Origin: Acidobacteriota bacterium | Lineage (GTDB): Bacteria > Acidobacteriota > Vicinamibacteria > Vicinamibacterales > UBA2999 | Reading direction: 5' to 3' | Length of the DNA stretch: 64,000 nucleotides | NCBI GenBank assembly: GCA_016871195.1 | Contig: VFZN01000010.1 | Span: 1 to 64,000, forward strand | Position numbers and translations under genes: made by a program | Shown: in pieces, positions 39,074-59,381 of the stretch | How positions within the stretch are numbered: the stretch's first letter is position 1 | Layout of the letters: each line of letters starts with the position of its first letter | The notes under the pieces: generated by a model | Seen by the model: the letters and a program-made list of their open reading frames with translations, nothing else | What the model was told of the DNA's origin: nothing | Databases searched by the model: none

Positions 39074-40312
39074 GTGAGCAGACGAGTGGTAGTCACAGGA
39101 GTCGGTCTGGTGTCCGCTCTGGGCATCGGCACAGACGCCAACTGGCACGGTCTGCTGGCAGGGCAGAGCGGGGCCGGCCCCATCACCCGGTTCGACGCAT
39201 CCGCGTTTTCCACGCGGTTTGCCGCCGAAGTGAAGGGGTTCGACCCGCTGGCGTTTCTTGACAAGAAAGACGTCAAGAAAATGGACCCGTTCATTCACTA
39301 CGCCATTGCGGCGTCACAGTTTGCCGTGGACGATGCCGGCCTTGCGGTGACTCCGTCGAATGCCGATCGCGTGGGCGTGTTCATCGCATCGGGCATCGGC
39401 GGCTTTTCCTCCATCGAGCGCGAGCATCGCGCGTTCCTTGAGGGAGGCCCCCGCAAGATTTCGCCGTTTTTCATTCCCGGCGCCATCATCAACCTGGCCT
39501 CCGGTCAGGTGTCGATTCGCTTCGGAGCTAGGGGGCCCAACTCGGCAACAGCGACGGCCTGCGCCGCCTCGGCCCATGCGGTCGGTGATGCCTTCGAGAT
39601 CATCCGCCGTGGTGCGGCCGACGTCATGATTGCCGGCGGATCCGAGGCCGGGGTGTGTGCCATGGGCGTGGGCGGATTTGCCGCGCTGCGTGCGCTGTCG
39701 ACGCGCAACGATGATCCGGCCCGAGCCAGTCGTCCGTTCGACAAGGACCGCGATGGCTTCGTGCTCGGGGAAGGGTCGGGTGTCATCATTCTCGAGGCGC
39801 TCGAGACGGCCCAGGCACGAGGTGTGCGCATCTACGCCGAAATGGTGGGCTACGGCATGTCGGGCGACGCCTTCCACATGACGGCGCAGCCCGAGGATGC
39901 GGACGGCGCCTATCGGTCGATGATGGCGGCGCTGGCATCTGCGGACGTCGCTCCGACCCAGGTCGACTACATCAACGCGCACGGCACGTCGACGCCGATC
40001 AACGATCCGACGGAAACCCTGGCCGTCAAGCGGGTCTTTGGCGACCATGCCTACCGGTTGGCCATGTCGTCGACCAAGTCAATGACCGGTCATCTACTAG
40101 GGGCCGCCGGTGGACTCGAGGCCGGCATTTCGGCACTGGTCCTGCGGCACCAGATGCTGCCGCCGACCATCAATTTCGATCAGCCAGGCGAGGGATGCGA
40201 CCTCGACTATGTGCCGAACACGGCACGGGCTGCCACCGTTCAATACGTGCTCTCGAATTCGTTCGGCTTCGGTGGCACCAACGCCTCGCTGCTGTTCAAA
40301 CGCTACGAGTAG
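39074..40312 (+). CDS. fabF: 3-oxoacyl-ACP synthase II FabF
   Basis: 412 residues. Condensing enzyme; nucleophile Cys in TATACAASAHAVGDA, the two His in NAHGTSTPIND and KSMTGHLLGAAG, and the C-terminal FGFGGTNASLLF. GTG 39074 gives SRRVVVTGVGLVSALG and is preceded by GGAGG; the ATG two bases earlier is followed by a stop in its own frame. Last gene of the fatty-acid block. Confidence 0.95.
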   Translation: MSRRVVVTGVGLVSALGIGTDANWHGLLAGQSGAGPITRFDASAFSTRFAAEVKGFDPLAFLDKKDVKKMDPFIHYAIAASQFAVDDAGLAVTPSNADRVGVFIASGIGGFSSIEREHRAFLEGGPRKISPFFIPGAIINLASGQVSIRFGARGPNSATATACAASAHAVGDAFEIIRRGAADVMIAGGSEAGVCAMGVGGFAALRALSTRNDDPARASRPFDKDRDGFVLGEGSGVIILEALETAQARGVRIYAEMVGYGMSGDAFHMTAQPEDADGAYRSMMAALASADVAPTQVDYINAHGTSTPINDPTETLAVKRVFGDHAYRLAMSSTKSMTGHLLGAAGGLEAGISALVLRHQMLPPTINFDQPGEGCDLDYVPNTARAATVQYVLSNSFGFGGTNASLLFKRYE

Positions 40313-55675: not shown

Positions 55676-55697
55676 AGCCCCACCCAGCGGTGGGGCT
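55676..55697. terminator. Bidirectional terminator hairpin
   Basis: AGCCCCACC and GGTGGGGCT form a perfect 9-bp stem with a CAGC loop between the convergent DUF1028 and prmA genes. It is the best hairpin in the window; U-rich tails are weak on both sides. Confidence 0.65.
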
Positions 55698-56602
55698 CAG
55701 GTGAGTTGCAGCGCCACCCAGGTGGCTTCTTCGAGCCGGGCCCGCGGCTGCAGGGGCAGGAAGGCCCGGGCCACCTCGGGCTCTTCCTCGCGATCAAATC
55801 CGCTGATGACGAGCGTGCCACCCGGCCTGACGAGTCGCCTGAGCTCGGCCGCGGTGGTGCGCAGCATGCCTCCCGTCAGATTGGCACACACAATGTCTGC
55901 GGGTGCATAGGGTGTCTGCCTGAAGTCGGCCCTGACGAACTGCACGACCGGCGGCAGGGGATTGAGCCGTGCACTGGTCAGGGCCGAGTCAATCGCATCC
56001 TGATCGACGTCAACACCGATGACCTCGCTGGCGCCCGAGAGCGCGGCGGCTATGGCCAGCACACCTGACCCCGTCCCCATGTCGAGCACTCGGCGTCCGT
56101 CACAGGGCAACGACGACAGCAGCGCCAGGCACATGCGCGTCGTGGGGTGATGGCCTGTACCGAATCCCATCGACGGCTCGATGACGATGACGGTGGTGTC
56201 GGGGGCCGGAGACTCCGGAACCTGCCAGGGGGGCGCGATCATGAAGCGCCCGGCGGTGACGGCCGTCAATGATGCCTGCGACCGTGCGGCCCAGTCATCA
56301 TCGGGCACGTAGACCGGCGTGAGTGTCAGCTCGGGCATCGCTGCTGTGATGTCGGCTGCCGCCTCGCGCCGCGCCGCGTCGTCCGCGAAGAAGACCCGCC
56401 ACCGAAGCGGCGTGGGAGGCGGTTCCGGGATCGGTGGAAATGTCGGATCCCAGAGTCCGCCAGGGGGCAGCGGCCGTTCGGCTAGGTCTTCGATGGCCAG
56501 GGGCGAGTGGTCGTCGAGCACCACCGGGAGCAGAACGTCGACGCCGGCAGGTACGTCGACGGCGGGCGCTTCGATTTGCAGCGCGTACCACAGCCGGCTC
56601 AT
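55697..56602 (-). CDS. prmA: Ribosomal protein L11 methyltransferase PrmA
   Basis: 301 residues. N-terminal L11-binding part, then the SAM domain: [51 protein letters not shown] and [11 protein letters not shown] (an NLxxxxL variant of the usual NIL motif). The N-terminal domain contains a proline-rich loop ([13 protein letters not shown]). prmA after dnaJ is a common arrangement; the two overlap by 4 bases. Confidence 0.92.
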
Positions 56603-57744
56603 CGGAACAGCTTCGAGAAGATGCTTTCCGATTCACTCTCGTCTGAGGTGCGCACCGGACTGTGATTTTCGGGGGCCAGGGTCGCCGCCAGCTGCTCGAG
56701 CAGCGCCCGCTGTTCCTTCGAGAGCTTCTTCGGTACGGTGCCCCGCACGGTGACCAGCAGATCGCCGCGTACACGATTCCCCCCGATGTCGGGCATACCC
56801 TTCCCCTTGATCTTCAGGGTTGAGCCCGGCTGCGTCCCCTCGGGGATGCGCAGCAATTCGCCGGCGTCGATGCCTGCCACATCAAGCTCACCACCCAGGG
56901 CGAGCGTGGTCATTGCGACGGGAATCTCACAGATCAAGTCGTTGCCGTTACGCCGCAGGAACTCGTGTTCGCGCACGTGAATGACCACGTACAGATCTCC
57001 CGACGGCCCTCCCTGCGACCCGGCCTCGCCCTCGCCCGTGAGGCGCATACGCTGCCCGGTGGCGATGCCAGCCGGCACCTTCACGGTGAGCTTGCGCTGC
57101 TGGGTGACCGTGCCCTGTCCCGCGCAGGCCTTGCAGGGCTTTTGAATCACCTTGCCGGCACCGCGGCACTGCCCGCAGGTGCGTGCCATAGTGAAGAATC
57201 CCTGCTGATACCGGAGCTGCCCCGCGCCGCGGCACTGCGGACAGGTCGTGGCGGTGGTTCCAGGGGCCGCGCCCGAGCCCATGCAGGGATCGCACGTTTC
57301 CTGTCGGGGAATCTGAATGGCGATGTCGGCGCCTCGGGCCGATTGCAGAAAGTCGATCTCCATGTCGTAGCGGAGGTCGCTGCCGCGCTGCGGACCGGAG
57401 CGCCGGCGACCGCCGCCGAGGGCGTCGCCAAAGCCAAAGATGTCGCCGAGTCCGCCGAAGATGTCCTGGAAGTCGGCGAAGATGGTCGGATCGACGCCGC
57501 CTGGCCCGCCGGCGGCGCCACCCACGCCTGCATGACCGAAGCGATCGTAGCGCGCGCGCTTGTCTGCATCGGCAAGCACGGCGTAGGCCTCGGCCGCTTC
57601 CTTGAACTTTTCCTCCGCGTCCTTGTCGCCGGGGTTGCGGTCGGGATGGTACTTGAGCGCCAGCTTGCGATACGCGGCCTTGAGGTCCGACTCGGCCGCG
57701 CCTCGTGCGACCCCGAGCACGTCGTAGAAGTCGCGCTTGCTCAC
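56599..57744 (-). CDS. dnaJ: Chaperone DnaJ (type I)
   Basis: 381 residues. J domain with HPD in [13 protein letters not shown], a Gly-rich linker ([12 protein letters not shown]), four zinc-binding repeats [24 protein letters not shown] and CKACAGQG, and the two beta-barrel C-terminal domains. GTG start overlaps grpE. It stimulates DnaK ATPase, but dnaK is not in this operon. Confidence 0.97.
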
Positions 57745-58268
57745 GACGAAACCTTGGCGACCCGCACCATGGCCGGACGCAGCAGACGATCGCCCAGCAG
57801 ATAGCCCTGCTGCAGCACCTGCACGACTTCACCGTCGCGGGCTCCGGCTACCTCGTCGTAGGACACCGCCTGATGGTGATGCGGATTGAAATCCTTGCCG
57901 AGGGCGTCCACCTCGGTCACGCCGCGTTTGCGGACCAGGTCGTGCAGGGCCTTGTGAATCATCTCGACGCCGGTCTTGTAGGGACGGGCGGCCTCTGGCG
58001 TCTCAATCCTAAGGGCCCGGTCGAAATCGTCCATGACGGCGAGCAGGTCGCCCAGCACGTCGGCGGCGGCCCACTCGGTGAACTCCTTCCGTTCACGCTC
58101 GATGCGCTTGCGGAAGTTGTCGAACTCTGCGGTCTTGCGCAGCAGCCGATCGTAAAGGTCGTCGCGCTCCTGCTGCAGCGCATCGGCCGGGGGCTGCGGA
58201 GCCGGCGAGCCATGGCCGTCGGGAGCAGGAGCAGTGGAGGGGTCGTGGAGTGCGTCGTGGGTGTTCAT
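57741..58268 (-). CDS. grpE: Nucleotide exchange factor GrpE
   Basis: 175 residues. An acidic/proline-rich N-terminus, a coiled-coil dimer region ([30 protein letters not shown]), and the beta domain with [13 protein letters not shown] and [27 protein letters not shown], the family signature. It lies 9 bases after hrcA and overlaps dnaJ by 4. Confidence 0.95.
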
Positions 58269-58277
58269 GACAATCCG

Positions 58278-59333
58278 TTACTGCACGTCGCGCAACACAC
58301 GGGCGACAGCCAGCGCGGCGATGTCGACCGCGGCAATCGCGCGGGAATACTTCATGCGGGTGGGGCCGATGACGCCGACCGTGCCTGTGCCGCGCCCATC
58401 GAAGTAGGTGGAGGCGATGAGGCTGAACGGTCGCATCTCTGGGTCGTTGTGTTCGGTGCCGATGACCACGGTGAGACCGGGGCCATCGATGTATTCGTTC
58501 AGCAGGCGCACGAGCCGCTGTTTCTCCTCGACCATGCGCAGCAGCGCGCGCAGCGTCGCCGGGGCGATGCCGCTGACCGATACGACCTGCTCGAGCAGCG
58601 TCGAGGCGCCGTCGATGTACACGGTCGTGGGCCCCTGCAGGGTGTCGAGGGACTGGTTCGCCAGACGGAAGGCTAGGCCCAGCAGCTGGTCGTAGAGCGT
58701 GCGCTCCTCGCGCAGGCGGGCGCGCACCCCGGCCCTGACGTCCTCAAGCGGCCGACCTGAGAACTGCTCGTTCAGATACTGTGCGGCATGACGCAACTCG
58801 TCGAGGCTGACCCCTTCGCCGATGTCGACGGTCTTCTGGGAGACCTGGTTGCCGCGGGAGACCATCACCACCAGGATGCGCGTGCCGCTCAGCGGCACAA
58901 ATTCGATGCGGTAGAAGACCGCGTGCTCGTTGGCCGGGGCGATGGCGAACCCCACGTGCCTCGACGATGCAGACAGGGCGTGCGACGTGGACGAGAGCAG
59001 ATCGTCGATGAGGGGTTGCGCGCCGGCTTCCTGTCGGATGCGGGCTTCAATGCCAGTGGCGTCGCGCGCGGTGCGCCGGCTGTCGAGCAGCTGGTCGACG
59101 TAGAAGCGGTAGCCCAGGTCGGTCGGCACCCGGCCGGCCGAGGTATGGGGCTGCCAGACGTAGCCCATGTCTTCCAACTGCGCGAGGATGTTCCTCACCG
59201 TCGCCGACGACACGGTGATGCCGAGTCGGGGCAACAGGGTCGCTGAGGCCACCGGTTCGCCGGTTTCGATGTACTCGCGCACAAGCGCGGCCAGCACGCG
59301 GCGCGTACGGTCAGAGAGGGCGGGCGCGATCAT
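58278..59333 (-). CDS. hrcA: Heat-inducible transcription repressor HrcA
   Basis: 351 residues. N-terminal winged helix: LSDRTRRVLAALVREYIETGEPV and GITVSSATVRNILAQLEDMGYV, then LPTDLGYRFYVDQLL-like region (here VPTDLGYRFYVDQLLD). GAF-like middle domain and C-terminal IGPTRMKYSRAIAAVDIAA are normal. It represses its own operon through CIRCE; a diverged copy of that operator overlaps its start codon. Confidence 0.95.
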   Translation of the reverse strand: MIAPALSDRTRRVLAALVREYIETGEPVASATLLPRLGITVSSATVRNILAQLEDMGYVWQPHTSAGRVPTDLGYRFYVDQLLDSRRTARDATGIEARIRQEAGAQPLIDDLLSSTSHALSASSRHVGFAIAPANEHAVFYRIEFVPLSGTRILVVMVSRGNQVSQKTVDIGEGVSLDELRHAAQYLNEQFSGRPLEDVRAGVRARLREERTLYDQLLGLAFRLANQSLDTLQGPTTVYIDGASTLLEQVVSVSGIAPATLRALLRMVEEKQRLVRLLNEYIDGPGLTVVIGTEHNDPEMRPFSLIASTYFDGRGTGTVGVIGPTRMKYSRAIAAVDIAALAVARVLRDVQ

Positions 59334-59359
59334 TGGCAGTCGCTACGGGAGACTGCCAA
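59333..59359. promoter_or_regulatory. CIRCE-type operator, diverged arms
   Basis: TTGGCAGTC-N9-GACTGCCAA, a perfect 9-bp inverted repeat with the exact 9-base CIRCE spacer. The known consensus arm is TTAGCACTC, so each arm differs at two symmetric positions. It begins one base after the hrcA -10 box and ends on the first base of the start codon, an ideal position for repression. Confidence 0.75.
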
Positions 59360-59360
59360 C

Positions 59361-59366
59361 AGTATA
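59361..59366 (-). promoter_or_regulatory. hrcA operon -10 box
   Basis: TATACT on the minus strand, 27 bases before the hrcA ATG, directly next to the CIRCE-like repeat. No clear -35; it would fall within the end of the xdhC-like gene. Confidence 0.55.
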
Positions 59367-59381
59367 GCAGGCCGCGGCCGG

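Follow-up and report, generated by a model that had tools for sequence, protein, structure and literature searches.

A variant CIRCE-type operator at hrcA in an Acidobacteriota genome and its candidate protein counterpart at the start of HrcA helix 2

The locus studied here raises the question of what kind of operator precedes the hrcA gene of this Acidobacteriota bacterium, and whether its departures from the consensus go together with a change in the HrcA repressor itself. CIRCE is defined as TTAGCACTC-N9-GAGTGCTAA (the Bacillus subtilis type). A sequence-only reading of the locus had taken the palindrome at hrcA for a diverged operator of this kind and had attributed its changes to co-evolution with an altered recognition helix in HrcA. 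The operator and the operon that follows it are laid out as follows:

59333..59359, minus strand: variant CIRCE-type operator, with arms TTGGCAGTC-TCCCGTAGC-GACTGCCAA on the hrcA coding strand (from the sequence)
59361..59369, minus strand: putative extended -10 element of the promoter, TGCTATACT, on the upstream side of the operator with one base between them (from the sequence and conservation in the family)
58278..59333, minus strand: hrcA, heat-inducible transcription repressor, 351 aa (TIGR00331 above cutoff; PF01628; relative of PDB 1stz)
57741..58268, minus strand: grpE, second gene of the operon (NCBIfam GrpE; 9-base gap to hrcA)
56599..57744, minus strand: dnaJ, third gene of the operon (TIGR02349 above cutoff; 4-base overlap with grpE)
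55697..56602, minus strand: methyltransferase ORF, putatively PrmA-like by inspection, the probable last gene of the operon (open reading frame)

The arms of TTGGCAGTC-N9-GACTGCCAA at 59333-59359 are perfectly complementary and follow the 9-9-9 spacing of CIRCE, which bears out the geometry and symmetry first described for the site; the same two departures from the consensus, A3 to G and C7 to G, are indeed present in both arms. The exact consensus arms TTAGCACTC and GAGTGCTAA are absent from this operator; 14 of its 18 arm bases are identical to those of the canonical CIRCE, and it is the top-scoring site in the window (the whole 64-kb stretch of DNA that was analysed). Perfect 9-N9-9 inverted repeats number two in the window, namely the hrcA operator and one at 39254, and dinucleotide shuffles of the window yield an expectation of 0.01 matches at three or fewer mismatches to the operator pattern. 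The second repeat (39254-39280; TTTCTTGAC-N9-GTCAAGAAA) lies within a ketoacyl-synthase-like ORF and is probably a chance occurrence. Published tables of CIRCE include the change of A3 to G, with accepted changes at positions 1 and 3 (PMC545781): the delta-proteobacterial variants cTgGCACTC and TTgGCACTC share A3 to G with the present site but, unlike it, have C at position 7, as do all the sites tabulated there. We found no published TTAGCAGTC or GCAGTC CIRCE, or any link of it to HrcA residues, in the open literature, which is weak evidence given that the HrcA literature is only partly open. Judged by its sequence, the hrcA site is best described as a CIRCE-type variant and not a canonical CIRCE, with a position 7 that falls outside the published variant lists.

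The coding strand reads TGcTATACT-g-TTGGCAGTC...GACTGCCAATG, with the -10-like hexamer ending one base before the operator and the A of the hrcA ATG serving as the last operator base; the proposed overlap with the start codon thus holds and amounts to a single base. An extended -10 of the form TGnTAyAmT adjoins the hrcA operator in all nine of the nine family members that have such an operator, and a -35 element was looked for at the hrcA promoter and not found. As a separate observation, five genomes of the family (that of the window and those of L195, L203, L205 and L209) have the hrcA ATG starting on the final operator base, and no Shine-Dalgarno sequence is visible before hrcA in these same five, suggesting an unusual translation start.

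We then extended the search for the operator pattern to the entire genome (3.08 Mb, 98% complete). The sole other close site, TTGGCAGTC-N9-GACTGCTAG, is found directly upstream of groES-groEL, and each of the genome's two operators has GCAGTC in its two arms. A standard CIRCE at groESL had been named in advance as the finding that would speak against the diverged operator; groESL instead bears the same GCAGTC variant, and the canonical CIRCE is absent from the genome in a strict-consensus search allowing up to three mismatches. Two further matches to the operator pattern at three mismatches, one within a 437-aa ORF and the other with no recognisable chaperone ORF nearby (by inspection), were treated as chance. 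At groES the last T of a -10-like TATCAT is the first base of the operator; in the groES leaders of relatives (e.g., L287, L283 and L289), the final T of the TATCAT -10 likewise doubles as the operator's first T. The groES leader of this genome (L002, 1501-1550) also contains a second, decayed operator, CTAGCCGCA-N9-GAGTGCTAG, which starts 23 bases after the first, has four bases in common with it and retains a right half, GAGTGCTAG, identical to that of the canonical CIRCE.

For a wider view we sampled the hrcA and groES upstream regions of about 100 genomes from the order to which this one belongs, together with hrcA from about 90 other genomes of the phylum. Within the order, 181 operators above threshold (60 at hrcA and 121 at groES) were recovered in 88 genomes, and the operator is kept at the same place in the relatives; thus, as is typical of CIRCE, it occurs at both hrcA and chaperone promoters and persists across related genomes. 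This conservation, along with the symmetry of the site and its groESL twin, upholds the earlier view that the changes are not decay. Across the order, half-site positions 2, 4, 5 and 6 are nearly invariant, positions 8 and 9 nearly so, and position 3 is A or G. Position 7 varies: in the primary half-sites it is G in 69, C in 47 and A in 4 at hrcA, and G in 110, C in 45 and A in 5 at groES. When the left and right arms are taken together, the hrcA operators comprise 22 C/G, 16 G/G, 12 G/C and 6 C/C forms, and the groES operators 38 G/C, 32 G/G, 4 C/G and 1 C/C, such that the commonest form in the order is a hybrid with GCAGTC in one arm and GCACTC in the other. Such G/C hybrids are also found within the family of the studied genome (G191 and G360). 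Only G is found at position 7 in 9 of the 50 order genomes for which both operators are known, and in five order genomes a C/C site coexists with a G/G site, with a single hrcA match per genome. Since canonical, hybrid and both-changed sites occur together with a single hrcA, position 7 appears to be relaxed rather than switched. The groES leaders of the order (L277-L366) also display tandem operators spaced by 23 bases in 22 cases, 41 in 10, 43 in 7 and 51-54 in 9; the two sites of the 23-base type have four bases in common, and in the 41/43 type examined the right arm of the upstream operator overlaps the -35 (TTGACA or TTGACT).

Beyond the phylum, at least 117 stretches with GCAGTC in both arms matched TTRGCAGTC-N9-GACTGCYAA exactly when genome contigs were scanned; they come from Clostridia, Chloroflexota, Lysobacteraceae, Patescibacteria and others, and among the 117 matches listed, 75 are situated no more than 500 bases upstream of groES, groEL or hrcA. 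Hence, as far as these motif matches indicate, the variant with both arms changed is a recurrent natural form seen in many phyla and not particular to this lineage. In one Lachnospiraceae MAG (L157, 7320-7425), the start of a canonical CIRCE is 79 bases from that of a CIRCE with GCAGTC in both arms. In a set of Clostridia with G in both arms at groES (L464-L478), the hrcA operators vary at the inner positions 7 to 9 (TTAGCAATC, TTAGCAGTT and TTAGCAGAC).

Turning to the protein, the ORF scores 280.1 bits against the TIGR00331 equivalog model (cutoff 197.2) and possesses the expected N-terminal winged-helix DNA-binding domain (model pLDDT 86; best match 1stz, E 7e-23). The two elements of its helix-turn-helix (HTH) that bear on the operator are:

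59241..59249, minus strand: codons for A29-S30-A31 of HrcA, where HTH helix 2 begins (from alignment and association; Gly-Ser-Arg/Lys in most HrcAs with canonical operators)
59166..59207, minus strand: HrcA recognition helix, residues 43-56, with an unchanged core (from the predicted helix and a column comparison)

The core of the recognition helix (S42, A44 and R47) is identical whether the operators of a genome are G-only, mixed or C-only, and no fixed differences in this helix separate the variant from the canonical group. Hence, the changed recognition helix that had been postulated to co-evolve with the operator is not borne out, its core columns also ranking low in the association scan described below. 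The distinguishing segment is instead residues 27-31, which read PVASA in this HrcA versus mostly PVGSR or PVGSK in canonical HrcAs. With helix 2 at residues 30-37 and the recognition helix at 43-56 in the predicted model, the first HTH helix begins with residues 29-31, in a region that can reach DNA in winged-helix proteins. We found no HrcA-DNA structure in the Protein Data Bank copy searched, the sole solved HrcA found being 1stz of Thermotoga maritima, which has the same winged HTH fold and, like the variant group, a helix 2 start of this kind (PVSSQ); by its entry title it contains no operator DNA and the likeness concerns the protein only. The nearest DNA-bound fold relative in the structure search was TtgV of the IclR family.

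To relate protein and operator, 82 columns of the DNA-binding domain were scanned for association with operator class in 249 HrcAs under four sequence weightings. Residues 31 and 29 rank between 1 and 3 of the 82 columns under all four, and columns 49 and 52, farther along the recognition helix, also score. For the operators beside hrcA, Arg or Lys at residue 31 goes with 56 C/C versus 2 other forms, and the remaining HrcAs with 28 C/C versus 67 other. Genomes with G in both operator arms contributed 48 HrcA loci (chosen by operator, with at least one genome counted twice), of which none has Arg31 and three have Lys31. Conversely, among random Bacillota_A HrcAs, 40 of 42 have Arg31 and two Lys31, and all 84 of their hrcA half-sites have C at position 7, while in Chloroflexota C/C accompanies Arg/Lys31 in 7 of 7 cases and its absence in 16 of 29; both samples cover the hrcA-proximal operators only. 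In phylogenetically separate contrast pairs drawn from a tree of the C-terminal domain (n=19), typically 8-10 are for the association and 0-1 against it, with a median sign-test p of 0.008 over 200 rootings and pairings (range 0.001 to 0.11 by pairing). On these pairs the scores of residues 37 and 83 come close to those of 29 and 31, and the association of position 7 with residue 31 is partly phylogenetic. There are also exceptions: Arg31 occurs with hybrid operators in G073, G121, G051 and G063 (two at hrcA and two by the groES site), as it does in five order members with PVSSR or PVASR. Thus, on these comparisons the Arg31 rule is one-directional and not absolute, with C still allowed where Arg31 is lacking, and the protein change that tracks with the operator lies in helix 2 (residues 29 and 31), outside the recognition helix.

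Several other interpretations can be set against these data. The least probable, to which we assign hardly any weight, is that the repeat is a chance palindrome or merely an RNA structure in the hrcA leader: it does lie in the expected 5' leader and adjoins the start codon, but the existence of a twin at groES, like the conservation, excludes chance. As for RNA structure, if transcription starts 6-8 bases after the -10, most of the left arm would be missing from the transcript. It is also rather unlikely that a changed recognition helix acquired a new, fixed specificity for TTGGCAGTC which the operators then followed. GCAGTC in both arms of both operators of this genome, and the 9 of 50 order genomes with only G at position 7, would fit such a switch; against it, the recognition helix core is unchanged, same-family relatives (G191 and G360) carry G/C hybrids, canonical and changed sites coexist beside one hrcA, and the canonical right half GAGTGCTAG persists in the genome's own groES leader.

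A further interpretation, which we regard as improbable though deserving of some weight, holds that position 7 is of little matter to any HrcA, C being merely a common default, so that the operators drifted neutrally and shared ancestry accounts for the association with residues 29 and 31. The spread of the variant over many phyla and the pair tests that sometimes reach only p of about 0.1 agree with this, as does the ChIP-derived motif of Waddlia chondrophila HrcA, TAGCA-N15-TGCTAA, which leaves the inner positions free and was accompanied by binding in EMSA (PMC4989314). That motif keeps the same outer core as the operators studied here; Waddlia, however, belongs to another phylum, and the likeness is one of operator motif. 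Drift would also not be expected to leave C at position 7 in 84 of 84 half-sites of Bacillota_A with Arg/Lys31, and the contrast pairs lean one way.

What the sequences themselves show is the site and its groESL twin, the conservation of the site, the presence of mixed sites among relatives, and the statistical association of HrcA residues 29 and 31 with the operator. The explanation that we favor, and consider probable, is that the site serves HrcA as operator of the hrcA-grpE-dnaJ operon and that the HrcA of this lineage has become relaxed at half-site position 7 through loss of Gly29/Arg31. An HrcA dimer on the operator would cover the stretch from the edge of the -10 through the likely transcription start to the start codon; HrcA footprints that span the transcription start are known from Campylobacter (PMC7464140). 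The bound repressor would block RNA polymerase and thereby repress its own operon, the twin at groESL would work in the same way, and heat shock would release HrcA. In losing the Gly29/Arg31 pair from the beginning of helix 2, the lineage would also have lost the demand for C at position 7, where C, G or A could then be tolerated while the core GCA, T2, T8 and C9 stay nearly fixed; residue 31 may be the contact responsible for the preference. The arrangement parallels the Bacillus subtilis-type system in being a 9-9-9 palindrome at the hrcA and groESL promoters, over the likely transcription start and with HrcA encoded directly downstream, and differs from it in the A3 to G and C7 to G changes of both arms and in a position 7 that is variable across the lineage. 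On sequence grounds, this variant CIRCE looks like a known system in relaxed form rather than a new code.

More tentatively, and with somewhat less than even confidence, we suggest that Arg/Lys31 (with Gly29) reads the C7-G pair, that a second, relaxed CIRCE class arose through its repeated loss across several phyla, and that specificity may be predictable from the start of helix 2. If true, this class would be one in which position 7 is free, with hybrid and GCAGTC operators. CIRCE is usually held to be among the most conserved of bacterial operators and is searched for with a strict consensus; in this genome such a search comes up empty. The overall picture is of an apparent variant of a known operator with a candidate protein counterpart, in which residue 31 offers a concrete and testable candidate for HrcA specificity, and once the relaxed class is recognised, HrcA regulons would be recovered in Acidobacteriota, Chloroflexota, some Clostridia and Xanthomonadales.
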